Shown piece by piece: positions 12,608 through 41,038 of a stretch of DNA of 41,038 nt. A program made the translations under genes and the position numbers. Under the pieces are notes generated by a model. It searched no databases and was not told the DNA's origin. It saw only the letters and a program-made list of their open reading frames with translations. The stretch is taken from contig CAACVI010000013.1 of the NCBI GenBank assembly GCA_900659855.1, positions 1 to 41,038 on the forward strand, given 5' to 3'. Each line of letters begins with the position of its first letter. The first letter of the stretch is position 1. The stretch comes from Candidatus Desulfarcum epimagneticum (lineage in GTDB: Bacteria; Desulfobacterota; Desulfobacteria; Desulfobacterales; CR-1).

Positions 12608-14563
12608 ATGGCGAAAAAATTGTGGGAGCCGTCAAAAGAGCGGATTGAAAATTCCAACATGAAGCGGTTCATGGACTTTGTGAATGACAAACACGGGACA
12701 CATTTCACGGAATACGCCCCCCTGTATGACTGGTCCATCGAAAATATCCCCGACCTGTGGGCGGCGGTGTGGGAATTCACAGGCGTCAAAGCCTCCCGGC
12801 CTTTCGACTCCCCGGCCAGGGATCTGGACAAAATGCCCGGAACCGAATGGTTTCCCGGCGCCCGGCTCAACTTCGCCGAAAATCTGCTGAGATATCGGGA
12901 CGACCGGCCCGCCATCGTGTCCGTGGGCGAGGAGAAGGCCCCCCGGAGAATGACCTACGCCCAGCTTTACGACGAGGCGGCGCGTCTGGCCGAGTCGCTG
13001 AAAAACGAAGGCGTGGGGGTCGGGGACCGGGTGGCGGGGTTCATGCCCAATATCCTGGAGACGGTGGCGGCCATGCTGGCCGCGGCCAGCCTCGGCGCCG
13101 TGTGGTCCTCCTGCTCGCCGGATTTCGGAATCAAGGGCGCTCTGGACCGGTTCGGGCAGATCCGGCCCAAGGTCATCTTCGCGGCGGACGGGTATTTTTT
13201 TAAGGGAAAGAAGATCAGCTCCCTGGAGCGGGTGGCCGATATCCGGAAAAAACTTCCCTCCCTGAAAAAACTTGTGGTGGTTCCCTACGCCGACGAGAGC
13301 CCCGACATATCGGGCATTGATGACGCGGTTTTTTATAACGATTTCAAATCAGACGCCGGCGGCCTGGAGATGGACTTCGCCCAGCTTCCCTTTTCCCATC
13401 CCATCTACATCATGTACTCATCCGGGACCACCGGGCTTCCCAAATGCATGGTCCAAAGCGCCGGGGGCATTTTGCTCAACCATTCCAAGGAGCTTTGGCT
13501 GCACACCGATCTGAGAAAAGACGACGTCATCTTTTATTTCACCACCTGCGGATGGATGATGTGGAACTGGCTGGTCACCTCCCTGGCCACAGGGGCCTGC
13601 GTGGTCCTTTTCGACGGCAATCCTTTTCATCCCCATCCCGGGAGACTGTGGGAGATCGCGGAAAGCGAAAAAATCAACGTGTTCGGGACCAGCGCCGGAT
13701 ACCTGGCGGCCCTTCAGGCCTCGGGGGAGAAACCCGGCGAAAAATACGACCTGTCTCCTTTGAAAAGCGTGATGTCCACCGGCTCCCCCCTTTCCATCGA
13801 GGGATTTGATTTTGTGTACGAACACATCAAGGGCGACGTCCAGCTCGCCTCCATTTCCGGGGGCACGGACTTAAACGGATGCTTCGCTTTGGGCGACCCG
13901 ACGGGGCCGGTTTACGCCGGCGAGCTTCAATGCCGGGGCCTGGGCATGAGTGTCAAGGCCTATGATGATAACGGAAAATCCGTGGTGGGAAGCGAGGGCG
14001 AGCTGGTGTGCGAGGCGCCCTTTCCCTCCATGCCCGTCTATTTCTGGGACGACCCGGACCGCGCCAGGTATCACGCGGCCTATTTCGACGTCTATCCCGG
14101 CGTGTGGCGTCACGGGGACTACGTGGAGATCACGCCCCGGGGCGGTCTGGTCATGCGCGGGCGCTCCGACTCCACCCTGAACCCCGGCGGCGTCCGCATC
14201 GGAACCGCCGAAATATACCGCCGGGTGGAGCAAATCGACGAGATCGAGGACTCGGTGGTGGTGGGCCAGGACTGGAAAAACGACATCCGGGTGATTTTGT
14301 TCGTCAAGATGGCCGGCGGCTCTGAGCTGACCGACGAACTCAGGGACCGGATCAAGCGGACCATCCGGGCCAACGCCTCTCCCCGCCATGTGCCGGCGAA
14401 AATCATCGCGGTCCCGGACGTTCCCTACACCCTGAACATGAAAAAAGTTGAGGTGGCGGTGAAAAAGATCATCCACGGAAAGCCGGTGACCAACAAGGAC
14501 GCCTTGAAAAATCCCGAGGCCCTGGACTTTTTTGAAAATATTCCCGAACTTGACCGGGACTGA
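12608..14563 (+). CDS. acetoacetyl-CoA synthetase (acetoacetate-CoA ligase)
   Basis: 651 aa, the normal length, with AAGGAGAGG before the ATG. An ANL-superfamily adenylate-forming enzyme: the P-loop-like IMYSSGTTGLPKCMVQSAGG is present, then YFTTCGWMMWNWLV, the A5 region ISGGTDLNGCF, A8 region RSDSTLNPGGVRIG and the C-terminal catalytic lysine region VPYTLNMKKVEVAVKK. The NMKKVEV end and SGGTDLNGCF are typical of the acetoacetate ligase subgroup rather than acetyl-CoA synthetase. It activates acetoacetate (or a related oxoacid) with ATP and CoA. It is 14 bp upstream of the dehydratase/reductase set, probably in one operon. Confidence 0.85.
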   Translation: MAKKLWEPSKERIENSNMKRFMDFVNDKHGTHFTEYAPLYDWSIENIPDLWAAVWEFTGVKASRPFDSPARDLDKMPGTEWFPGARLNFAENLLRYRDDRPAIVSVGEEKAPRRMTYAQLYDEAARLAESLKNEGVGVGDRVAGFMPNILETVAAMLAAASLGAVWSSCSPDFGIKGALDRFGQIRPKVIFAADGYFFKGKKISSLERVADIRKKLPSLKKLVVVPYADESPDISGIDDAVFYNDFKSDAGGLEMDFAQLPFSHPIYIMYSSGTTGLPKCMVQSAGGILLNHSKELWLHTDLRKDDVIFYFTTCGWMMWNWLVTSLATGACVVLFDGNPFHPHPGRLWEIAESEKINVFGTSAGYLAALQASGEKPGEKYDLSPLKSVMSTGSPLSIEGFDFVYEHIKGDVQLASISGGTDLNGCFALGDPTGPVYAGELQCRGLGMSVKAYDDNGKSVVGSEGELVCEAPFPSMPVYFWDDPDRARYHAAYFDVYPGVWRHGDYVEITPRGGLVMRGRSDSTLNPGGVRIGTAEIYRRVEQIDEIEDSVVVGQDWKNDIRVILFVKMAGGSELTDELRDRIKRTIRANASPRHVPAKIIAVPDVPYTLNMKKVEVAVKKIIHGKPVTNKDALKNPEALDFFENIPELDRD

Positions 14564-14577
14564 AAAGGGGGCCGCGC

Positions 14578-15720
14578 ATGAGCGCCATGATGAAAACCCT
14601 GACGCCCTTTTATGAAATTTCCCGGGACCCGTCGGCCCGGGCCGCGGCCGCCAAAGAAGACGGCCGCCGGATCATGGGCTGTTTTTGCTCCTACGCGCCG
14701 GTGGAGATCATATCGGCGGCGGGCTTTGTTCCCTTTAGAATATTCGGCCGGGGAAAACGCGCGGAAAAGGCGGATTCCCATCTCCAGAGCTACTGCTGCG
14801 GCCATGTTCGGGGGGCGCTTGCGGACGCTTTGTCCGGCGAGCTGGATTTTTTGGAAGGAGCGGTTTTTCCCCACACATGCGACTCCATCCAGAGGCTTTC
14901 GGACATCTGGCGGATGAACGCGAAAATGGGCTTTCACTGGGACCTGGCCCTTCCGGCGGATGTGTCGGGAAAAGGGGCCCGGGTCTATATGAAGTCCGTT
15001 CTGGAGCGTTTCAGACAGGGCCTTGAGGACCATTTCGGCGCAAATATCCCGGACTCGGAAATCCGGAAAGCCGCGGCGTCATACAACCGGATCCGCCGCA
15101 TGCTGACCCGGTTTCTGGACATCGCCTCTGAAAACCCGGCCCGGATCTCCGGCTCGGACACGCACGCTGTTTTGCGGGCGTCCATGTCCGCGGACCCGGG
15201 GACGATCGCGCGCCTTCTGGAGCCCCTGCTGGCGGAGGCGGAGTCCGCCGGGGAAAAAGACGACGGCGGCGCCCCCAAAAAACGCCTGATTCTCTCCGGC
15301 GGCCCCTGCGATTTTCCGGACATCCGGGCCGCCGTGGAGGAGGCCGGGGGCGTGGCGGCGGGCGACGACACGTGCTCCGGGGGGCGGTCTTTTCCCGGGG
15401 AGATAGATTCTAACGCGGAGGACATTATGGCCGCCGTCGCCGACGCCTACCTGGGCCGGATCGTGTGCCCCTCCAAGCATTCCGGACTCAAAGACCGGGG
15501 CCGCCGTCTGGCCGAAATGGCCCGAAAGGCCAAAGCCGACGGCGTGGTCTTTTTGTTTTTGAAGTTTTGTGATCCCCATCTGTTCGACTATCCCTATCTG
15601 AAAGAGACGCTCAAAGAGCGGGGGGTGGACTCCATCATGTTTGAAATCGACGGGGATTTTGTCCCGGACGGGCAGTTTAAAACCCGCCTGGAGGCTTTTC
15701 TGGAAACAGTCGGAAGATGA
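14578..15720 (+). CDS. 2-hydroxyacyl-CoA dehydratase/benzoyl-CoA reductase family, BcrC/HgdB-like subunit
   Basis: 380 aa, the length of BcrC/BzdN and HgdB proteins. Motifs are MGCFCSYAPVEIISAAGFVP, a cysteine in QSYCCGHVRGAL, FPHTCDSIQRLSDIWRMN and a C-terminal LKFCDPHLFDYPYLKETL followed by FEIDGDF. The cysteines in these blocks are candidates for [4Fe-4S] ligands. Such subunits pair with a second, related subunit and receive electrons from an ATP-driven activator, either to dehydrate 2-hydroxyacyl-CoA or to reduce the benzoyl-CoA ring. HTCDSIQRLSDIW resembles reductase C subunits, but the family is not separable by eye. The next gene starts 73 bp downstream. Confidence 0.85.
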   Translation: MSAMMKTLTPFYEISRDPSARAAAAKEDGRRIMGCFCSYAPVEIISAAGFVPFRIFGRGKRAEKADSHLQSYCCGHVRGALADALSGELDFLEGAVFPHTCDSIQRLSDIWRMNAKMGFHWDLALPADVSGKGARVYMKSVLERFRQGLEDHFGANIPDSEIRKAAASYNRIRRMLTRFLDIASENPARISGSDTHAVLRASMSADPGTIARLLEPLLAEAESAGEKDDGGAPKKRLILSGGPCDFPDIRAAVEEAGGVAAGDDTCSGGRSFPGEIDSNAEDIMAAVADAYLGRIVCPSKHSGLKDRGRRLAEMARKAKADGVVFLFLKFCDPHLFDYPYLKETLKERGVDSIMFEIDGDFVPDGQFKTRLEAFLETVGR

Positions 15721-15793
15721 CGACGACATAACGCCACGCCCCTGGATGTGTTCAAAAGGGGCCGAACACACAAACAAAAACAGGACAAGCCAT

Positions 15794-17053
15794 ATGCCGA
15801 CACAGGGCGCGGACGCCAAAGCCGAAAAGGAAAAACGAAAGATCAAATCCGTCGCGAAGATGAAGGAGATCATGACGAAGTATTACATCGAGGCGAAAAC
15901 CGCGCCGGATTCCGGGAAGAAAATCGCCTGGATCACCAGCGGCGGGCCGGTGGAGCCGCTCATCGCCATGGATGTGATCCCCGTTTACCCGGAAAACCAC
16001 GGCGCCATGATCGGGGCCTCCAAAATGGGGGCCGACCTTTGCGAGCAATCCGCCGGGATGGGCTATTCGCCGGACCTGTGCTCCTACGCCCGGGTGGATA
16101 TCGCGGCGGCGCCCCCGGCCAACGGCGGTCCCATCGGGGGCCTTCCCCGCCCGGACATGCTGGTGTGCTGCAACAACATCTGCGGGACCGTTCTCAAGTG
16201 GTACGAAGTCCAGGCCCGGCATTTCAACGTCCCGCTTTTTGTCCTGGACACGCCCATCTCCCACGGGGATTTTTTCCCCGAGGTCCGCGATTATGTCAGG
16301 ACCCAGATCATGGACTATGTCGCGTTTCTTGAAGAAATATGCAAAAAAAAGATGGACCACGACCGGATGGAGGAGGTGGGCCGCCTGTCCGTTGAGGCGC
16401 AGGGATTGTGGCAGGCCGTTCTGGACGCCACCGTGAACAGGCCGTCCCCCATGAGCGCCTTTGACGCCTTTTTCCACCTGGCGCTTATTGTGACCCTTCG
16501 CGGCACGTCCGAGGCCGTCGGGTATTACCGGACCCTTCTGGATGAGATGAACGAAAGGATCCGCGACGGAATCGGGGCCGTTGAAAAGGAGGAATGGCGG
16601 CTTTTGTGGGACAACCTTCCCATATGGTCCCGGACCAAGTGGCTGTCGGAAAAATTCTCCTCCCACAACGCCTGTCTGGTGGCCGACACCTACACCTCGG
16701 CCTGGTGCGGAACCCTTGAATATATCGATGAAAACGACTTCCTGGGCTCCATGGCCGAGGCGTACTCCCGCGTGTATCTGAACATCGGAACCGACCAGAT
16801 GGCTGAAAAAGTGATTGAAATGATCGATAAATATGATATCGACGGCCTGGTGGCCCATTCCAACCGGAGCTGCAAACCCTATTCCTTCGGGCAGTACGAT
16901 ATTTTAAATATTATCAAGGAAAAAAGGGGAACGCCGGGGATGGTCATTGAGGCGGACATGACCGATGACCGGAGTTTTTCCGAAAGCCAGGTGGAGACCC
17001 GGATCGAGGCCTTCATGGAGATGCTCAGGTCATCGGCCCGAAAAGATATTTAA
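15794..17053 (+). CDS. 2-hydroxyacyl-CoA dehydratase/benzoyl-CoA reductase family, BcrB/HgdA-like subunit
   Basis: 419 aa from ATG 15794; the frame is open further upstream but overlaps the previous gene. Characteristic stretches are ITSGGPVEPLIAMDVIPVYP, DLCSYARVDIAAAPP, GGPIGGLPRPDMLVCCNNIC followed by GTVLKWYEVQAR, and the C-terminal VIEADMTDDRSFSESQVETR that ends most members. Cysteines in DLCSY, VCCNNICG and NRSCKPYSFGQYD are likely cluster ligands or substrate-site residues. Together with the preceding gene it should form the heterodimeric catalytic component. Length and the GGPIGGLP block suit BcrB/BzdO as well as HgdA/HadB; substrate unresolved. Confidence 0.85.
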   Translation: MPTQGADAKAEKEKRKIKSVAKMKEIMTKYYIEAKTAPDSGKKIAWITSGGPVEPLIAMDVIPVYPENHGAMIGASKMGADLCEQSAGMGYSPDLCSYARVDIAAAPPANGGPIGGLPRPDMLVCCNNICGTVLKWYEVQARHFNVPLFVLDTPISHGDFFPEVRDYVRTQIMDYVAFLEEICKKKMDHDRMEEVGRLSVEAQGLWQAVLDATVNRPSPMSAFDAFFHLALIVTLRGTSEAVGYYRTLLDEMNERIRDGIGAVEKEEWRLLWDNLPIWSRTKWLSEKFSSHNACLVADTYTSAWCGTLEYIDENDFLGSMAEAYSRVYLNIGTDQMAEKVIEMIDKYDIDGLVAHSNRSCKPYSFGQYDILNIIKEKRGTPGMVIEADMTDDRSFSESQVETRIEAFMEMLRSSARKDI

Positions 17054-17097
17054 CCCTTGGGACCCATCACACACCACACAATCAAGGATTTTGCTTT

Positions 17098-17859
17098 ATG
17101 CTTTCAGTCGGAATCGACATTGGATCCATCACCGCCAAGGCGGCTTTGATCAAAGACGGCGAGCTTGCCGCCACTGAGCTGACCCACACCGGCTACAATT
17201 CCAGAGAGGCCGGCGACCGGATTTTTGAAAAGCTTCTGGACGCCGCCGGGCTCAAAAAACAGGACATCGACCGCGTGGTGGCCACCGGATACGGCCGAAA
17301 AAGCGTGTCCATGGCCGACAAAAACGTCACCGAAATCACCTGCCACGGCGCCGGGGCCCGGTTTCTGGACCCCGAAATCCGCTCAGTCATCGACATCGGG
17401 GGCCAGGACAGCAAGGCCATCTCCATTGACGACAACGGCTCTGTGACGGACTTCGCCATGAACGACAAATGCGCGGCCGGAACCGGGAGATTTCTGGAGG
17501 TCATGGCAAGGGCGCTGGAGGTGGACCTGGACGATTTCGGCCGCATGTCCCTGGAAGGGGAGGACCCGTCCCCCATCAGCAGCCTGTGCACGGTCTTTGC
17601 GGAGTCGGAAATCATCTCCCTGATCTCAAAGGGGGAAAAAAGGCAAAACATTATCGCGGGCATTCACGAGTCCATCGGCTCCCGGGTCATGTCCATGGCC
17701 GGCCGGGTGGGCATTCAAACGCCCGTGATGATGACCGGGGGCGTGGCCAGAAACGTGGGGGTCATTCATGCCCTTGAAAAGAAAATCGGGGAGCCCTTAA
17801 GGGTTTCAAAAAAGGCCCAGCTCACCGGGGCCATTGGAGCGGCGCTGATCGGTTCATAG
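17098..17859 (+). CDS. ATP-dependent activator of dehydratase/reductase (BadF/BadG/BcrA/HgdC family)
   Basis: 253 aa. ASKHA ATPase: phosphate-1 motif VGIDIGSITAKAALI, VIDIGGQDSKAI, and C-terminal TGGVARNVGV adenosine motif. The two cysteines that bridge a [4Fe-4S] cluster across the homodimer are in MNDKCAAGTGRFLE and SSLCTVFAESE. The protein hydrolyses ATP to push a low-potential electron into the catalytic heterodimer encoded just upstream. Only one activator gene is present, as in HgdC/HadI systems; canonical class I benzoyl-CoA reductases have two different ATPase subunits. The dedicated electron donor is not encoded next to it. Confidence 0.92.
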   Translation: MLSVGIDIGSITAKAALIKDGELAATELTHTGYNSREAGDRIFEKLLDAAGLKKQDIDRVVATGYGRKSVSMADKNVTEITCHGAGARFLDPEIRSVIDIGGQDSKAISIDDNGSVTDFAMNDKCAAGTGRFLEVMARALEVDLDDFGRMSLEGEDPSPISSLCTVFAESEIISLISKGEKRQNIIAGIHESIGSRVMSMAGRVGIQTPVMMTGGVARNVGVIHALEKKIGEPLRVSKKAQLTGAIGAALIGS

Positions 17860-34010: not shown

Positions 34011-34982
34011 ATGTTTGCTCTTGGATTGCAGGGAAGCCCCAGGAAAAAGGGCAACACGCAATATCTGCTTTCAAAGTTCATGGATGGGCTTTCGGCGGCC
34101 GGCGCCGAGACCCGGGTCATTGAGCCGGCCCGGGAAAACATCCGGCCCTGCCGGGGATGCGGGTACTGCGAAAAAAAAGGATACTGCGTCATCGCCGACG
34201 ACGACATGGCCGGCCACGTGTACGCCGATTTCAGGAGGGCGGACATCGTGGTGTCCGCCACCCCGATTTTTTTCTACAGCGCCACGGCCCAGCTCAAGGC
34301 CCTCATCGACCGGTCCCAGGCGCTGTGGTCCAGGAAATACGCGCTGAAGCGAAACGAGCCGGGCAAAAACAGCCGGAAAGGGTTCATGCTGGCCCTGGGC
34401 GCCACCAAGGGCGCCAACCTGTTCGAGGGCCTGACGTTGACCCACCGGTATTTTTTTGACGCGCTCAGCGCCGGGTTCCACGGAAGCCTGACGTACCGAA
34501 GGATTGAAAAAGCCGGGGACATTCAAAAATATGGCGATCTCGAAAAAGAGGTGAGGGAGGCGGCGGCCTCTCTCATGGCGCCTTTTTCAAAACGAAAAAC
34601 CGTTTTGTTCGCCTGTCGGGAAAACGCCTGCCGAAGTCAGATGGCCGGGGCCTTCGCCCGGCTTCACGCCGGGGACAAACTGGATGTCATGACCGGCGGA
34701 AGCGAGCCTGCGGAAGAGGTCAACCCCATGATGGTCGAGGCCATGGAGGAAAAGGGGGTGGACATGGCGTTTCTGGCCCCCTCGTCTTTCGAGGACGCCA
34801 TATCGAAAAACGCCCCGGACCTGATTTTCACCATGGGCTGCGCCGAACAATGCCCGGCGGTTCCGGGAGCGACAGTGACGGACTGGGACATTCCCGATCC
34901 GGCCGGAAAGGACCTGGCGTTGATGAGAAAAACCCGGGACGAGATTGAGCGGCGGGTTTTGGACCTGGCCCAAAAAATTTGA
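34011..34982 (+). CDS. iron-sulfur flavoprotein fused to an arsenate-reductase/LMW-phosphatase-like domain
   Basis: 323 aa. Residues 1-190 are a flavodoxin-fold NADPH-dependent FMN reductase domain (GSPRKKGNTQYLL phosphate loop) with the compact cluster motif C47, C50, C53, C59, as in Isf proteins that pass electrons to oxygen or peroxide. Residues 194-323 form a second domain: FACRENACRS carries the C-x5-R phosphatase loop (C202, R208), MGCAEQCPAVPG (C277, C281) resembles the resolving cysteines of thioredoxin-coupled ArsC, and DWDIPDP gives the general-acid Asp. The fusion would bring its own reductant to an arsenate reductase, or act in thiol redox control. Domain calls are clear; joint function is inferred. 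Confidence 0.85.
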   Translation: MFALGLQGSPRKKGNTQYLLSKFMDGLSAAGAETRVIEPARENIRPCRGCGYCEKKGYCVIADDDMAGHVYADFRRADIVVSATPIFFYSATAQLKALIDRSQALWSRKYALKRNEPGKNSRKGFMLALGATKGANLFEGLTLTHRYFFDALSAGFHGSLTYRRIEKAGDIQKYGDLEKEVREAAASLMAPFSKRKTVLFACRENACRSQMAGAFARLHAGDKLDVMTGGSEPAEEVNPMMVEAMEEKGVDMAFLAPSSFEDAISKNAPDLIFTMGCAEQCPAVPGATVTDWDIPDPAGKDLALMRKTRDEIERRVLDLAQKI

Positions 34983-34998
34983 TTGATAAGGAGACAAA

Positions 34999-35199
34999 AT
35001 GGCCGAGCCTGAACAGATGTATCAATGTCAGACTGTGAACTGCGGATATATATACAATCCCGACAAGGGCGACCGGAAGGGAAAGATCCCCAAAGGAACC
35101 CTGTTCGACGATTTGCCCGATGACTGGAAATGCCCGGTGTGCGGCGCCGGGAAAAAGATGTTTCGGCCCCTGGCGGGTCCGGGCTCAACGGCGGGATAG
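34999..35199 (+). CDS. rubredoxin with expanded CX4C site (Rd-2 type)
   Basis: 66 aa. The first knuckle is C10-QTVN-C15, four residues between cysteines instead of two; the second is normal, C45-PV-C48. The rest is a standard rubredoxin ([25 protein letters not shown]). The CX4C insertion is known in Rd-2 of Desulfovibrio and alters the iron site. It is followed 56 bp later by a conventional rubredoxin gene. Confidence 0.92.
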
Positions 35200-35426: not shown

Positions 35427-36629
35427 ATGACGACGAACGGCATGGAAATCGCCAAAGGCGTGTACAATGTGGGGGTGACGGACTGGAATATCCGTGATTT
35501 TCACGGGTACTCCACCAAGGAAGGCAGCACGTACAACGCGTATCTGATTGTGGATGAAAAGACCGTTCTCATCGACACGGTGAAAGAGCCCTTTGCCGGA
35601 AAGCTTCTGGAGAACATCTCCAAAATCGTGGACCCGAAAAAGATCGACGTTTTCGTGAGCAACCACACGGAGATGGATCACTCCGGGGGCATTCCCCGGA
35701 TCATGCATCGGATCGGCGAGGACAAGCCCCTTTACTGTTCCAAAATGGGGTTTAAGAATCTCTCCCTCCACTTTCCGAATTCGTACGACTACCGTCCGGT
35801 GAAAACAGGCGATGAGCTGACCCTGGGGAAACGGACCCTTTCCTTCCTCGAAACCCGGATGATCCACTGGCCCGACAGCATGTTTTCGTATTTGAAGGAA
35901 GACAAAATTCTTTTTTCAAGCGACGGTTTCGGCCAGCATTACGCGGGCCCCGAGAAGTTCGATGATGAGATCGGCGACGACATCATGCCCCATGCGAAGA
36001 AGTATTTCGCCAACATACTTCTTCTGTACGCGCCCAGGATCGCCAAGCTCATTGATCAGGTGGTGGACATGGGCCTTGAGATCGATATGATATGCCCGGA
36101 TCACGGCATTATCTGGCGCAAGGACCCGTCTAAGATCATCAACGCCTATGTCCGGTGGTGCGAACAGAAGCCCGAGGCCAAGGCCATCGTGGTGTTTGAC
36201 ACCATGTGGCACAGCTCCGAGTCCATGGCCGAGGCCGTGGTCGAGGGAATCGCCGGGGAAGGGGTGAAGGCCAGGCCCATGTGTCTGAAAGGCTCGCACA
36301 GGAGCGATGTCATCACCGAGGTTCTGGACGCGGCGGCGGTGGTGGTGGGCTCTCCCACCCTGAACAACGGTATGTTTCCCACCGTGGCCGATTTTCTGAC
36401 TTACATGAAGGGATTAAAGCCGAAGAATAAGATCGGGGGCGCCTTTGGCTCCTACGGATGGAGCGGCGAGGCCTCCGGCCTGATTCAAAGCGCCCTTGAG
36501 GCCATGAAATTCGACATGCCCCAGGATCCCCTTAAAATCCAGTACGTGCCGGATGAAAAGGGTCTGGAGGCGTGCCGGGAATTCGGGGCGAAAATCGGGC
36601 GCGCGGTGAAACAGACCGTCGGGGTTTAA
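35427..36629 (+). CDS. flavodiiron protein (rubredoxin:oxygen oxidoreductase)
   Basis: 400 aa, standard A-type length. The metallo-lactamase-like domain supplies the diiron ligands H80, E82, D84, H85 (NHTEMDHSG), H147, D166 and H226 (CPDHGIIW). The C-terminal flavodoxin domain (from about 250) binds FMN: VVFDTMWHSSESMA, VVGSPTLNNGMFP and GSYGWSGEASG. It takes electrons from the rubredoxin encoded directly upstream and reduces oxygen to water, or NO to N2O. Ends before a strong terminator, so it is probably the last gene of this transcription unit. Confidence 0.95.
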   Translation: MTTNGMEIAKGVYNVGVTDWNIRDFHGYSTKEGSTYNAYLIVDEKTVLIDTVKEPFAGKLLENISKIVDPKKIDVFVSNHTEMDHSGGIPRIMHRIGEDKPLYCSKMGFKNLSLHFPNSYDYRPVKTGDELTLGKRTLSFLETRMIHWPDSMFSYLKEDKILFSSDGFGQHYAGPEKFDDEIGDDIMPHAKKYFANILLLYAPRIAKLIDQVVDMGLEIDMICPDHGIIWRKDPSKIINAYVRWCEQKPEAKAIVVFDTMWHSSESMAEAVVEGIAGEGVKARPMCLKGSHRSDVITEVLDAAAVVVGSPTLNNGMFPTVADFLTYMKGLKPKNKIGGAFGSYGWSGEASGLIQSALEAMKFDMPQDPLKIQYVPDEKGLEACREFGAKIGRAVKQTVGV

Positions 36630-36684: not shown

Positions 36685-36707
36685 CACATCCAGGGGTTTT
36701 GACTGTC

Positions 36708-36899
36708 ATGAAAAGGCCGGTTGTGGAGCTTTCCGACTGCGTTTTATGCGGCGTCTGCGAGGATATATGCCCGGAGGTGTTTCAAATCAACGACGCGGGC
36801 TATGTGGAGGTGGCCGATCTGGACCATTATCCCGAGGACGCCGTGAACGAGGCCGTGGTCAACTGTCCGGTGGACTGCGTCAGCCTTGAAGACGGATGA
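36708..36899 (+). CDS. [4Fe-4S] ferredoxin
   Basis: 63 aa from ATG 36708. C11-VL-C14-GV-C17 and C53-P form a single [4Fe-4S] site as in Desulfovibrio-type ferredoxins; C21 and C57 could form the additional disulfide or a second ligand set. The acidic surface fits an electron carrier. Transcribed separately, just after the terminator. Confidence 0.92.
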   Translation: MKRPVVELSDCVLCGVCEDICPEVFQINDAGYVEVADLDHYPEDAVNEAVVNCPVDCVSLEDG

Positions 36900-36926: not shown

Positions 36927-37397
36927 TCAGGCGTTCAGCAGTTTTTTGGCCAGAAGCCGGACGTGGCCCATCTCCTCTCTGATGATCTCGTCGATCCGGT
37001 CTTTCCCGAGTTTTTCCGGCACCAGGTCCTTCATCCCCAGGTAAAAGACGATGGAGTCTTTCTCCGCCGTGATGGCGGCTTTTAATATCTCCTTGAAAGA
37101 GGACACGTCGATCTTTTTTTCAAAAAACACCCGGGTGTCCACCAGGGCCTTGAGGTAAAGCGTCGATTCTCCGGAAGGGTCGAACACCGTGGCGGCCTTT
37201 TCCGATCCGGACAGGTCTTTTTGAAGTTTGGCGAAGGTTTTTTCGTGGGCCTCTTCCATTCGGGCCAGGTCCAGAAGAAAGTCCTGATGCTTGTCCGCGG
37301 CCGGGCCCTGGGCCGCGTTTTTGTAAAATTCGGCGCCGTTTCGCTCCATCTGAAGGGCCATTTCAAAAATATCATCCGCGTTGAAATCGTAGCTCAT
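36927..37397 (-). CDS. ferritin-like diiron protein (rubrerythrin family without rubredoxin domain)
   Basis: 156 aa. FEMALQMERNGAEFYKNAA and RMEEAHEKTFAKL give the first E...ExxH set, and ITAEKDSIVFYLG with IIREEMGHVRLLAKK the second, the ferritin-like four-helix diiron pattern. The C-terminal rubredoxin domain is absent. Likely a peroxide-scavenging or iron-handling protein. It starts 44 bp after the bd-like cytochrome gene on the same strand, so both are likely co-transcribed. Confidence 0.9.
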   Translation of the reverse strand: MSYDFNADDIFEMALQMERNGAEFYKNAAQGPAADKHQDFLLDLARMEEAHEKTFAKLQKDLSGSEKAATVFDPSGESTLYLKALVDTRVFFEKKIDVSSFKEILKAAITAEKDSIVFYLGMKDLVPEKLGKDRIDEIIREEMGHVRLLAKKLLNA

Positions 37398-37441: not shown

Positions 37442-38695
37442 TCAGGAATTCGTCAAAATATACGTGGCCAAAACGTCCAACTCCTCTTCGCTCCCGAAAA
37501 AAGGCGGCATGTCTTCGGGAGGCTCGCTTAAAAACGCCTTGAGGTCGTCTTTGGAAAAGCTTTCAGCCAAATCCGCCAGCTCCGGGCCCATGGTTCCGCC
37601 CTGTCCCAAAAAAGAATGGCAGGCCCCGCATCCCGAATTCGCGTAAACCGATGGGCCGTTTGGCGCGCCGGATTTTGGGGCGGGCGGGGTTTCGGCGGTT
37701 TTCCATTGCTGGCTCATGTACATGGATCCCCACACCAGGTAAGGCTTCCGGGCCTTTTCACGGGCGTATCCCCCGACGAAAAAGGCCGTGAACATGGCCA
37801 CAGCGGCGACGACCAGCGCCTTTTTTCCCTTTTTGTGCCCCAAAATCCAGTACAGGGCCGCGCACAGAACCGAAATCACGGCCAAAGTGATCATGACGTG
37901 GAGAAAGGGGCGGCCGAGCCCGGTCCAGAGCTGCTGAAAGGGGTTGGGGACGGGAAGGCCCTGGGAGACCGATCTCACCTTGAGCAGGAAACCGATCCCT
38001 GAAAGGGGCTGGAGGAAAATCAGGGCCGCCGCCACGCGGGCGTGGAAACGGCCGATTTTTTCAAAATAGGCGGCGTCCGGCCCCGGCGCCCTGGATTTCC
38101 ACAGGTTGTAAAGGAAGATGAGAAGCGCCGCGTTGATCAGGCAAGGCAAAAGCATGTGGGTGAACGATTCCCACAAAACAGGGCTTTGGACCGCGTCCCA
38201 CCGGCTTCCGGTCTCCAGCCATTTCCCGGGCGCCATCATGAACGCCCAGGCCGCGTTGATCAAAAAGGCCGTCATGACGGCGCAAAAGGCCACGCCGGCG
38301 CCCAGGAGAAGATGGGCGCCCGATGAGATCCGGTCCCGGGTCCGGCGCCAGGACACGGAAAAAACCATCAGGAGAAGGAAAAAGGCGCCCTCGGCCACAA
38401 AAAGCCAGAACAAAGTCGAGTACAAAAACCCGGTGAAGGTTTTCCACAGGCCGATGAGCAAAACAAGGATCACCACCCCGAGCACGCCGTTGATCTTCAT
38501 CATGTCCGACAGAAACGAGGAGAGGCCGGCGTAAAACCGGGCGTGGTCCGGGTCGTTTTTTCTTTTCCCCATCCACTCCGAAAGCAGGGCCATGACCACG
38601 CCCCCCACGGCCAAAAAGGCGAAAAACACATGGATCAGGATGACCACGGCCAGGATGACGCTGTTTCCGGTCAGGGGAAAATGGATGTCGCTCAT
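37442..38695 (-). CDS. cytochrome bd subunit I-like membrane protein fused to cytochrome c
   Basis: 417 aa. About nine membrane segments occupy residues 12-330, with an early histidine (IHVFFAF, H22) and TM segments resembling CydA-type proteins. A periplasmic C-terminal domain follows with the haem c site C356-GA-C359-H360 and a later Met ligand candidate (EDMPPF, M396). No CydB-like subunit II is encoded beside it. It could be a quinol-linked oxygen or electron-transfer enzyme with cytochrome c as entry or exit, as in OR-C/bd-related families. Ribosome site is weak; start is the first Met before the first TM helix. Family call is moderate. Confidence 0.7.
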   Translation of the reverse strand: MSDIHFPLTGNSVILAVVILIHVFFAFLAVGGVVMALLSEWMGKRKNDPDHARFYAGLSSFLSDMMKINGVLGVVILVLLIGLWKTFTGFLYSTLFWLFVAEGAFFLLLMVFSVSWRRTRDRISSGAHLLLGAGVAFCAVMTAFLINAAWAFMMAPGKWLETGSRWDAVQSPVLWESFTHMLLPCLINAALLIFLYNLWKSRAPGPDAAYFEKIGRFHARVAAALIFLQPLSGIGFLLKVRSVSQGLPVPNPFQQLWTGLGRPFLHVMITLAVISVLCAALYWILGHKKGKKALVVAAVAMFTAFFVGGYAREKARKPYLVWGSMYMSQQWKTAETPPAPKSGAPNGPSVYANSGCGACHSFLGQGGTMGPELADLAESFSKDDLKAFLSEPPEDMPPFFGSEEELDVLATYILTNS

Positions 38696-38738
38696 AAAGG
38701 GCCTCCGGCAGGGGAACGGGTTTGATTTTTTTAAAATC

Positions 38739-38767
38739 TTTGTAGGCCAATTTTATCCCTGTGTCAA
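38739..38767 (-). promoter_or_regulatory. sigma70 promoter for the bd-like cytochrome/ferritin-like operon
   Basis: Minus strand: perfect TTGACA (38767-38762), 17-bp spacer, TACAAA (38744-38739), 44 bp before the start codon. Confidence 0.65.
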
Positions 38768-38902
38768 TGTTTTTTAGTAAAATAAAACCCTTGGGCCGCA
38801 TGTTCATCCCCGTCGGCGTCAAGGCGCTTGACTTTTCGGGGGGTTTTGGGGCATGATTGCCCCATGACCTCAATCACCTGACAAAAGGGGAGGAAAGCAG
38901 AC

Positions 38903-39160
38903 ATGGACGCAAGAGTGAAGATATACACCACGCCCACATGACCCTACTGCAAAATGGCGAAAGAGTTTCTTTCCAAAAAAGGCGTGGATTTCAAGGCGTT
39001 TGACGTGACCCGGGACCCGGAGGCGCTCAAGGAGATGAAGGCGCTTTCCGGCGCGCGAACCGTTCCCGTGATCAGCGTGTGCGGCAATGTGATGATCGGC
39101 TTTGACGCAAAGCGCCTGGAGCATGATCTCAAATGCCTGGAGCAAAGCTCGCCCCTATGA
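38903..39160 (+). CDS. glutaredoxin-like selenoprotein (UxxC active site, in-frame TGA)
   Basis: 85 aa read through TGA at 38939-38941 as selenocysteine (residue 13). From ATG 38903 the protein reads MDARVKIYTTPT-U-PYC and continues in the same frame as a complete glutaredoxin/NrdH-type fold: KMAKEFLSKKGVDFKAFDVT, the TVP cis-proline (GARTVPVISV) and a C-terminal GFDAKRLEHDL. Cys-containing homologues have CPYC at exactly this position. AGGAAAG precedes the start. The stop overlaps the start of the AhpF-like reductase (ATGA). A hairpin that could serve as SECIS follows the TGA (38959-38973). A gene-finder without recoding would truncate this gene to begin at 38954. Confidence 0.9.
38956..38974 (+). 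promoter_or_regulatory. candidate bacterial SECIS hairpin
   Basis: GAAAG (38959-38963) pairs with CTTTC (38969-38973) around a five-base AGUUU loop; GG (38956-38957) and C (38974) allow slight extension. The loop starts 22 bases after the UGA and has G in its second position, within the limits usually described for bacterial SECIS elements. The stem is short, so this is tentative. Confidence 0.5.
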
Positions 39161-40083
39161 CCCCCCCGCCTCTTTTCGACGTGATCATCATCGGGGGCGG
39201 CCCGGCCGGTCTCAGCGCGGCCATTTACACGGCCCGGAAGGTTTTGAAAACCCTTCTGGTCAGCCATGACATCGGCGGCCAGGTCACCTACACCTACGAT
39301 CTGGACAACTACCTGGGTTTCAGCCAGGTGGAGACGGCGGACCTCATCTCCAAGTTCGACGACCACGTGGATCGGTTCGGGGTGGCCAAGATCACCGGGG
39401 AAAAAGTGAGGCGGGCGGATGTGGCCGGGGAAGTCAAAACTATTTTTTTGAGCGACGGGTCGTCCCACTCGTCCAAAACGCTCATCATCGCCAGCGGGAA
39501 AAGACCCCGGCCCCTGAATGTGCCCGGGGAAAAGGAGCTGACGGGAAGGGGCGTGGCCTACTGCTCCACCTGCGACGCCCCCCTTTTCGCGGGCGCCGAC
39601 GTGGCCGTGGTGGGCGGCGGCAACTCGGCCCTTGAGGCCGCGCTGGACCTGGACAAGGTGGCTGAAAAGATACACATGGTGTCTTTGACCCCCCTCACCG
39701 GGGACCCCATCCTCATCGAAAAGGTCCGGGCCTCTTCAAAAATTGACATCCTCATTGAGCACGACACAAAGGCCATATCCGGGGACGGCGAGGTGGACGG
39801 GATCGAGATCATATCCCTTAAGACGGGAAAAACCCGGAGACTCGACGTGGAAGGGGTGTTTATCGAAATCGGCCTTCTGCCCAACTCCGATCTTTTCTCA
39901 GACGCGGTCCCCACCAATTCCCTGGGGGAGATCGTGGTGGACAAGATGTGCAAAACCCGCGTCCCCGGGGTGTTCGCCTGCGGCGATGTGACCGATGTGC
40001 CCTACAAACAGGTGGTGGTGGCCGCCGGCGAGGGCGCCAAGGCGGCGCTGTCCGCCTATGATTACCTGATCAAAAGACGGTGA
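39157..40083 (+). CDS. AhpF-like/thioredoxin reductase-like NAD(P)H flavoprotein
   Basis: 308 aa from ATG 39157, overlapping the glutaredoxin stop by four bases; a longer reading from 39133 is rejected. FAD motif VIIIGGGPAGLSAA, redox-active C136-ST-C139 (AYCSTCDAPLF), pyridine-nucleotide motif VVGGGNSALEAA and C-terminal FACGDVTDVPYKQVVVAAGE. The segment after the nucleotide motif (HMVSLTPLTGDP) lacks the HRR signature for NADPH and resembles AhpF, suggesting NADH. The sequence aligns with the C-terminal two-thirds of AhpF; the N-terminal thioredoxin-fold domain is absent and its job can be done by the coupled Sec-glutaredoxin. Confidence 0.9.
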   Translation: MTPPPLFDVIIIGGGPAGLSAAIYTARKVLKTLLVSHDIGGQVTYTYDLDNYLGFSQVETADLISKFDDHVDRFGVAKITGEKVRRADVAGEVKTIFLSDGSSHSSKTLIIASGKRPRPLNVPGEKELTGRGVAYCSTCDAPLFAGADVAVVGGGNSALEAALDLDKVAEKIHMVSLTPLTGDPILIEKVRASSKIDILIEHDTKAISGDGEVDGIEIISLKTGKTRRLDVEGVFIEIGLLPNSDLFSDAVPTNSLGEIVVDKMCKTRVPGVFACGDVTDVPYKQVVVAAGEGAKAALSAYDYLIKRR

Positions 40084-40105
40084 GGCGCTTTCAAAGCCGG
40101 CCGGC

Positions 40106-40306
40106 TCATGGTTTTTCCCTTTTTTCTTTCCTTTTTCTTTCTTTTCTCATGAACCAGATCAGGCACGACGGCCTGAACTTGCAGTAAATTTCCGGATCCC
40201 GGCAGTCCGCCCGGTCCGCGTCCACTCGGATTCCGTGTTTCATGCAGACCAGGGCGTTTTGATCGTCGGCTTCCGGGGTGGCGGGTTTTATTTGAGATGG
40301 TTTCAT
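40106..40306 (-). CDS. small cysteine-containing hypothetical protein
   Basis: 66 aa. Four cysteines in CMKHGIRVDADRADC, then IYCKFRPSC, could form a small metal site; the C-terminus is a run of Lys, Arg and Glu. It starts 9 bp after the gene at 40316 on the same strand. No family recognised. Confidence 0.55.
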   Translation of the reverse strand: MKPSQIKPATPEADDQNALVCMKHGIRVDADRADCRDPEIYCKFRPSCLIWFMRKERKRKEKREKP

Positions 40307-40315
40307 CGTCTTTTT

Positions 40316-41038
40316 TTATTCCAAAAACCGTTTGTCCGCGCTCCAGGCGATCGAGTTTGCGACAAAAAAATCAATGGCGGTTTTGTAAAAACCTGAGGCG
40401 GAAAAGACAAAGAAAAGGGTTTTGTCAAGATTCTCCAGTTTTTTGACCTCCGAGGCTTTTGCGAAAAAAGCTCTGGCCTCTGTGAGGGAAAATTTTTTCT
40501 TCCTGTTTTTCACTTCCCCGATAAGAGAATACGCATCGCCGCCCGCCTGGGCGAACACATCCACCTGGATGTCTTTTTTATGGACCGGAGAAGCGCTGTA
40601 AGACCATAGGGTCGAATATTCAACAAATTCGAAATCGTCGGGCAGATTGCTCATCATGGACATGTAGAGATCGTTTTGTTTGTAAGCGCGGTGTTTCAGA
40701 TGATTCATGATGACATACTCGGAAAACTCCCCCTTGTATTTGTTGTATTCGCCCTGGAGTTTTTTATAAAGGGTTCTGTATTCGGCTTTGATTTTCTCGG
40801 GAGTAAAGCCGTCGATCTCCTCCTGGTAAACCCCTCGAAACACTTTGTCGAATATGTTGTCCTGGACCGCGTGATAACTGAAATAGCTGGTCCCCTGCTC
40901 GATGATATCGGCTTTCACAAAGGCTTTTAAACGTTTTTCCAGCTCCCGGTCCGTCATGGAAAGCTCAAGCGCGTTTCGTATTTCATCCCGGGTGACTTTT
41001 CTTTCTTTGTGTTTGCAGATGTACAATATAATTCTTTT
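40316..41038 (-). CDS. C-terminal part of an ATPase/nuclease-like protein, cut by window edge
   Basis: The frame stays open to the right edge (KRIILYICKH at the boundary), so only the last 240 residues are visible. RKVTRDEIRNALELSMTDRE to KADIIEQGTSYFSY looks like a winged helix. The C-terminal half has DIQVDVFAQ and SLIGEVKNRKKKFS, a D...E-x-K pattern typical of PD-(D/E)XK folds (DUF234-like tails of archaeal-type AAA ATPases). The ATPase domain, if present, lies beyond the window. Function is not assigned; such proteins are often linked to mobile or defence loci. Confidence 0.7.
   Translation of the reverse strand, partial: KRIILYICKHKERKVTRDEIRNALELSMTDRELEKRLKAFVKADIIEQGTSYFSYHAVQDNIFDKVFRGVYQEEIDGFTPEKIKAEYRTLYKKLQGEYNKYKGEFSEYVIMNHLKHRAYKQNDLYMSMMSNLPDDFEFVEYSTLWSYSASPVHKKDIQVDVFAQAGGDAYSLIGEVKNRKKKFSLTEARAFFAKASEVKKLENLDKTLFFVFSASGFYKTAIDFFVANSIAWSADKRFLE

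Follow-up and report, generated by a model that had tools for sequence, protein, structure and literature searches.

Glutaredoxin with selenocysteine (Sec) at its active site (Grx, UxxC) is listed as an experimentally verified selenoprotein family in the accessible passages of PMC13188914, and Sec-Grx also stands in the tables excerpted from PMC9312934 and PMC1794560. Another described redoxin system is that of Clostridium pasteurianum, where, according to the available passages of PMC3720550, the redoxin Cp9 (annotated YruB) is encoded between an NADH-dependent thioredoxin reductase (TrxR; cp34) and a peroxiredoxin (cp20), and shuttles electrons between both. As to oxygen defence, excerpts of PMC11451228 name the flavodiiron protein and the bd oxidase as oxygen reductases of sulfate reducers; PMC10880999, from its accessible part, is background only for this system.

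Here we analyse a window (by which we mean the whole stretch of DNA under analysis, 41,038 nucleotides) from Candidatus Desulfarcum epimagneticum, in which the gene of a predicted Sec-Grx overlaps that of a flavin disulfide reductase and lies close to oxygen-defence genes.

Results

The Sec-Grx gene occupies positions 38903-39160 of the window (+ strand) and encodes 85 residues with U13 read through, its final TGA lying at 39158-39160. The read-through translation of 38903-39160 (+) is MDARVKIYTTPT-U-PYCKMAKEFLSKKGVDF... Translation from the ATG at 38903 meets a single internal in-frame stop, the TGA at 38939-38941 (+ strand), in the context TPT-U-PYC, and a ribosome-binding site, GGGGAGG (38887-38893, + strand), can be read off the sequence 9 nt 5' of the ATG; an earlier note on this DNA had given exactly these positions for the start, the TGA and the end, and had likewise seen a ribosome site ahead of the ATG. 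The TGA is predicted to encode U13, the first active-site residue of a UPYC motif, and the second, Cys16 (TGC at 38948-38950, + strand), is invariant across the 16 proteins of our alignment. After the TGA, the window protein shares 57-74% identity with the other 15 aligned members and has no further stop before its end. C60 and C78, which are extra to the active site and near-invariant in the Sec forms (27/28 and 25/26, respectively), may form another thiol pair or bind a metal.

The read-through protein matches Pfam Glutaredoxin (PF00462) with 78 bits (6.4e-22). A chance open frame is excluded by this match and by the TGA itself, which recurs at this residue in 27 other distinct loci (see below). 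The best NCBIfam model is YruB TIGR02196 (82.6 bits, under the cut-off of 88.55), and the features of YruB/Cp9 are present in the alignment, namely VKIYT, UPYC (with Sec for the first Cys), P55, G66 and F67. The model for Uxx-star (seleno)proteins, NF041212, is matched by 16/16 aligned members at E <= 0.001, and the window protein, the only one for which the cut-off comparison was made, exceeds its curated cut-off (76.7 bits versus 66). The earlier expectation that standard annotation would lose the N-terminus is thus right only in part, since this NCBIfam model accepts the protein once it is read through. The read-through protein scores below the cut-offs of all three named UXX-star families (1, 2 and 3) of NCBIfam, and does not pass the models of the classical GSH-dependent glutaredoxin 3 (TIGR02181, 65.1 versus 90; NF007923, PRK10638, 51.7 versus 129).

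An AlphaFold2 model built with 16 sequences (mean pLDDT 81.6, pTM 0.66) shows the order E-H-E-H-E-E-H, and U13 is found immediately ahead of the first helix (H14-26). With the Pfam match, this agrees with the earlier view that the frame on both sides of the TGA makes one glutaredoxin fold. A structure search with the predicted model returned Archaeoglobus Grx (3ic4), BC3987, cGrx1, cGrx2, Brucella Grx and NrdH as the closest solved folds; cGrx1 we take to be a Sec-containing glutaredoxin of Clostridium oremlandii. The TMq of the model was 0.78-0.83 against BC3987, 0.79-0.80 against the dithiol cGrx1 (7c10; 40% identity) and 0.75 against NrdH (1h75). The GFD after the cis-Pro strand presumably brings the protein nearer to the redoxins cGrx1 and BC3987 than to classical Grx with its Gly-Gly GSH site. 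A second Grx-like gene of the genome (C12:12892-13137) stands at 31%.

Decoding of the TGA as Sec requires dedicated machinery, whose genes the earlier note had proposed to look for. The genome examined (a draft of 3,255,155 bases in 52 contigs, 99.7% complete) contains all four of them. In a genome profile search, selA (572.6 bits), selB (373.3 bits) and selD (368.1 bits) were all over their cut-offs, and so was selC, the tRNA-Sec (76.1 bits), whose anticodon is TCA by ARAGORN. The selD gene (L128, C12:51993-52922) has an in-frame TGA of its own, in the context GAG-U-ASK, so that UGA decoding probably serves at least two genes.

Homologous loci were chosen for closeness and comprised the window and 40 others (L019-L021, L047-L062 and 21 loci from a search of the class); removal of eight loci with identical context left 33 distinct ones, window included. 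From a search that gave 30 loci, L017 (the window) and L018 (located where L140 is) were dropped as duplicates and L022-L046 because they are less close; also outside the set are 64 further matches beyond L062 (of 80), of which the eight looked at for their codon all have Cys. At the position aligned to U13, 28/33 distinct loci have TGA and five a Cys codon, TGC or TGT (L020, L021, L052, L053 and L155). Homologues with Cys at this place, which the earlier note had counted on, therefore exist, and they put the TGA at the first Cys of a CPYC-type site. The gene is patchy, as a match at E <= 1e-20 was found in only 20/389 genomes of the class (21 matches with the window counted, 18 with and three without an internal TGA). 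The TGA form is also found on Syntrophaceae contigs (L056-L059 and L061) and on one Chloroflexi contig (L062). On the latter, the TGA redoxin and a PDZ domain (PDZ_2, 53.6 bits) form an in-frame fusion (L062:2622-3752), with a rubrerythrin gene (122.3 bits) directly upstream. The Sec/Cys labels on the Grx tree (41 rows, 86 columns) require five changes, at least three of them forced by starred branches. Farther off, 23 Grx-like matches in relatives (<=45% identity) also have an internal TGA and are probably other selenoproteins of the UXX-star type. Plasmids yielded 176 records, none of which reached 60% identity; among the ten listed, the hits are grxC, a glutaredoxin-domain protein or unannotated.

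A hairpin about 20 nt after the TGA had also been noticed earlier, and we find a core starting 18 nt past the TGA in the window. This putative bacterial SECIS hairpin core, GAAAG-AGTTT-CTTTC (38959-38973, + strand), lies within the coding sequence at a position common to the TGA loci, in which the hairpin 3' of the TGA has the loop AGUUN. The hairpin register pairs 85.2% of cells, versus 24.0-69.4% in slid registers. What we consider the best evidence for a SECIS is the synonymous fixity of two codons in the 28 related TGA loci: of the 39 positions, Met, Trp and stop aside, at which one residue occupies at least 85% of these loci, E21 (GAG, 28/28) and L23 (CTT, 28/28) alone lack synonymous variation. 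Both codons are kept in the window; the first (E21) lies across the 5' arm and the loop, the second (L23) within the 3' arm. By contrast, in the same loci E44 is split between 15 GAG and 13 GAA, and L42 and L76 use five and six codons, respectively, in 25 loci each; across 20 ORFs of the window, 23% of Leu residues are encoded by CTT and 49% of Glu residues by GAG. The Cys loci also largely keep the two codons (GAG 4/5, CTT 3/5), so the contrast with the TGA loci is small. L052 and L053, which have Cys and retain both GAG and CTT, suggest a change from Sec to Cys, as judged from these codons.

Folding of the window hairpin gave -4.8 kcal/mol (z +0.38), with 125/200 shuffles folding at least as well. 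The three other TGA loci folded, with z of -1.68, -0.95 and -1.94, all surpass it in stability, in a comparison that is rough because the L070 stretch begins 3 bases later than the others. The two lowest pairs are broken in the window hairpin, as they are in 6 and 7 of the 27 other TGA loci. Covariation was not supportive: the observed value was reached by 38/500 shuffles on two measures and by 86, 334 and 500/500 on the remaining ones, and the registers slid by -1 to -3 outscored the hairpin register. Rfam SECIS_1 matched nothing in the genome, nor in any of 14 control genomes, and hence this search says nothing on the window; over 38000-41038, Rfam at E <= 1 gave a sub-threshold sRNA match only. 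Taken with the Sec machinery and the Cys homologues, the codon constraint supports the earlier reading of a glutaredoxin-like selenoprotein whose Sec replaces the first Cys of the active site, and, judged from its sequence, 38903-39160 looks like a genuine selenoprotein gene of a known kind, into whose product Sec would be inserted in the cell.

The stop codon of the Sec-Grx gene overlaps, as ATGA, the start of an AhpF/TrxR-like flavin disulfide reductase gene (39157-40083, + strand; 308 aa; Pyr_redox_2, 161.2 bits), for which an alternative in-frame start exists at 39133. Against NCBIfam, the reductase scored 348.3 bits with AhpF (cut-off 502.9) and 302.4 with TRX_reduct (cut-off 343.45), leaving both equivalog cut-offs unreached, and it matched the AhpF chain 1fl2 with 262.1 bits. 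Its CSTC redox motif (39562-39573, + strand) aligns to the CPHC of that chain. The HRRxxxR motif, which we take to be characteristic of E. coli TrxR, is absent. A second, canonical TrxR (376.6 bits) is encoded on another contig of the genome.

The earlier note had singled out the partner arrangement as the interesting part, and the comparison of loci bears this out. A TrxR-like match lies downstream on the same strand in 20/33 distinct loci, and 17 of these 20 reductases have an upstream same-frame CxxC stretch, i.e. a Grx-like domain in cis (its likeness to Grx being seen by tblastn in many though not all of them, and also by reading), which is absent in the window. The three without an attached Grx stretch are the window (wholly absent), L149 and L154. 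In L154:800-1450 (reverse strand) the in-cis Grx domain is apparently a remnant (GCPFC... then a break) and the Sec-Grx is kept; L149 was not counted as a case of domain loss because its TrxR match begins at query residue 115. In the other 13/33 loci there is no TrxR in the flank, which for L056, L155 and L158 extends at most 101 bases downstream; ten of the 13, including seven of L054-L061, have more than 1 kb downstream, so the redoxin can exist without this reductase as its partner.

A search for the reductase itself in the 389 class genomes gave 24 matches in 23 genomes at E <= 1e-95, of which 17 have the attached stretch, five do not (the window, L178, L182, L184 and L186), one has a remnant (L180) and one is masked (L176). 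L182 is an unfused reductase with a separate Cys-type Grx directly upstream. The TrxR tree has 25 inner branches, five starred and 17 open, and a base without resolution; L180 (= L154) falls within a clade whose other rows are all fused or masked (96/91), and it alone points to loss of the Grx domain.

Upstream of the Sec-Grx gene, Pfam matches identify, on the + strand, a fusion of FMN reductase with a low-molecular-weight phosphatase-like domain (34011-34982), rubredoxin (34999-35199), a flavodiiron protein of the O2/NO reductase type (35427-36629; ODP and Flavodoxin_1) and a single-cluster ferredoxin (36699-36899), and, on the - strand, a rubrerythrin/ferritin-like protein (36927-37397) and a cytochrome bd oxidase subunit I-like protein with a C-terminal cytochrome c domain (37442-38695). 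Counted at >=40% identity in the flanks of the 32 other loci, these neighbours recur in 5, 15, 9, 5, 2 (L050 and L053) and 0 loci, respectively, and at least one of the first five in 19/32; as many flanks are <=1.5 kb, the counts are lower bounds. No peroxiredoxin gene lies next to the redoxin/reductase pair in the window, and a genome search found two genes of the AhpC-TSA family (L188 and L189), both on contig C12. In the four of L054-L061 whose ORFs were listed (L054, L058, L060 and L061), a large opposite-strand ORF with MEKFIEIIGA(R/K)SHNLKNI lies downstream of the Sec-Grx; the L054 and L061 copies of this ORF contain UvrA interaction and DNA-binding domains. Elsewhere in the window, 12608-17859 is a dehydratase or benzoyl-CoA-reductase-like gene set, with an AMP-binding enzyme, a 2-hydroxyglutaryl-CoA dehydratase D-type component and a BcrAD/BadFG ATPase.

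Discussion

We favour, with a probability of roughly 70%, a selenium counterpart of the NADH-driven Cp34/Cp9 redoxin system of clostridia, in which a Sec-containing, Cp9/NrdH-like glutaredoxin would be reduced by the overlapping reductase and would serve peroxiredoxins or repair. SelB and Sec-tRNA(Sec) would decode the TGA at 38939-38941, aided by the hairpin 3' of it. Electrons from NADH would enter at FAD, move on to the CSTC pair and reach U13/C16, the Se-S pair of the redoxin, from which thiol targets would receive them. NADPH is a possible alternative as coenzyme; we prefer NADH because of the likeness of the reductase to AhpF and the missing HRRxxxR motif. In most relatives, the reductase's own Grx domain would act as an internal relay; as the window has no such domain in cis, the Sec-redoxin is likely to be the direct acceptor of the reductase. 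The likeliest targets would be peroxiredoxins, for which the two candidates elsewhere in the genome may be considered, or proteins oxidised during exposure to oxygen, which the nearby oxygen-defence genes make plausible.

The protein may instead be a selenoprotein that is not the partner of the adjacent reductase. Its electrons would then come from the canonical TrxR or from a low-molecular-weight thiol and go to other acceptors (e.g. a peroxidase, a methionine sulfoxide reductase or a metal), and the overlap of the two genes would reflect no more than operon packing. The 13/33 loci that lack a TrxR in the flank, ten of them with more than 1 kb downstream, and the canonical TrxR on another contig are consistent with this, as are the accessible passages of PMC13188914, which discuss that Sec in the UXX-star group might coordinate a metal. 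Yet the reductase lies downstream on the same strand in 20/33 loci, in the window the two genes share the ATGA, and there the reductase's own Grx domain is absent while the Sec-Grx is retained, and we hold independent operation to be unlikely.

Readings in which the TGA does not encode Sec have much less in their favour. The gene might be decaying, with the TGA now a stop, the SECIS already weak and the product a 68-aa remnant from the ATG at 38954 or nothing at all. An ORF from that ATG is present, and the window hairpin is outdone in stability by the three others folded and does no better than shuffles; against this, the protein after the TGA is conserved (57-74% identity to the other 15 aligned members, no other stop), the window retains the fixed GAG and CTT codons and the Sec machinery is there, which makes decay very improbable. 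That the true codon is TGC or TGT, misread in sequencing or assembly, is close to inconceivable: the genome is a draft of 52 contigs and Cys homologues do exist, but the same TGA recurs in 27 other distinct loci along with the fixity of the hairpin codons.

Within the favoured reading of a Sec-redoxin served by its overlapping reductase, we tentatively consider a further step, to which we give less than even odds: the locus might be a two-gene NADH-driven selenoredoxin system, in which the stand-alone Sec-glutaredoxin replaces in trans the Grx domain of related reductases. The basis is the window reductase, which has no such domain, and L154/L180, where only a remnant is left; in both the Sec-redoxin is kept. 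If this were true, a single soluble redoxin would, by virtue of selenium, fill both roles.

Literature searched mostly by title or in passages, with few subscription papers, mentions neither a Sec-Grx beside an AhpF-like reductase with oxygen-defence genes nor the exchange of in-cis for in-trans Grx, and YruB was not found described as a selenoprotein in the literature searched; the pairing seems little described. The locus introduces no new principle; what it contributes is a coherent group of Sec-redoxins, many of them next to a reductase gene, within a selenoprotein family already known. The group offers natural pairs for asking what selenium buys, with Sec or Cys redoxins beside the same reductase (Cys in L021, L052 and L053) and reductases with or without the Grx domain in cis.

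With the selenoprotein Grx (UxxC; e.g. cGrx1), the window redoxin shares the PF00462 domain and Sec at the first active-site position, at 40% identity to the dithiol cGrx1 (7c10); it differs in adjoining a TrxR/AhpF-like reductase and oxygen-defence genes, and in its extra C60 and C78. It belongs with the Uxx-star proteins by the cut-off of NF041212, but falls below the named UXX-star families 1, 2 and 3. Like the AhpF and Grx-TrxR fusions, to which most relatives conform with their N-terminal Grx-like CxxC stretch in cis, the window reductase aligns best to AhpF; unlike them, it has no in-cis stretch, and a separate Sec-redoxin gene overlaps its own. The Cp34/Cp9/Cp20 system of C. pasteurianum, as described in the available passages of PMC3720550, has in common with the window a CP[YW]C-type redoxin beside a TrxR-like gene, with the conserved [IV]-X-[ILV]-[YF]-[ST], Pro, Gly and Phe, whereas the window redoxin has no adjacent peroxiredoxin gene, scores 82.6 against the YruB cut-off of 88.55 and is predicted to carry Sec in place of the first Cys.
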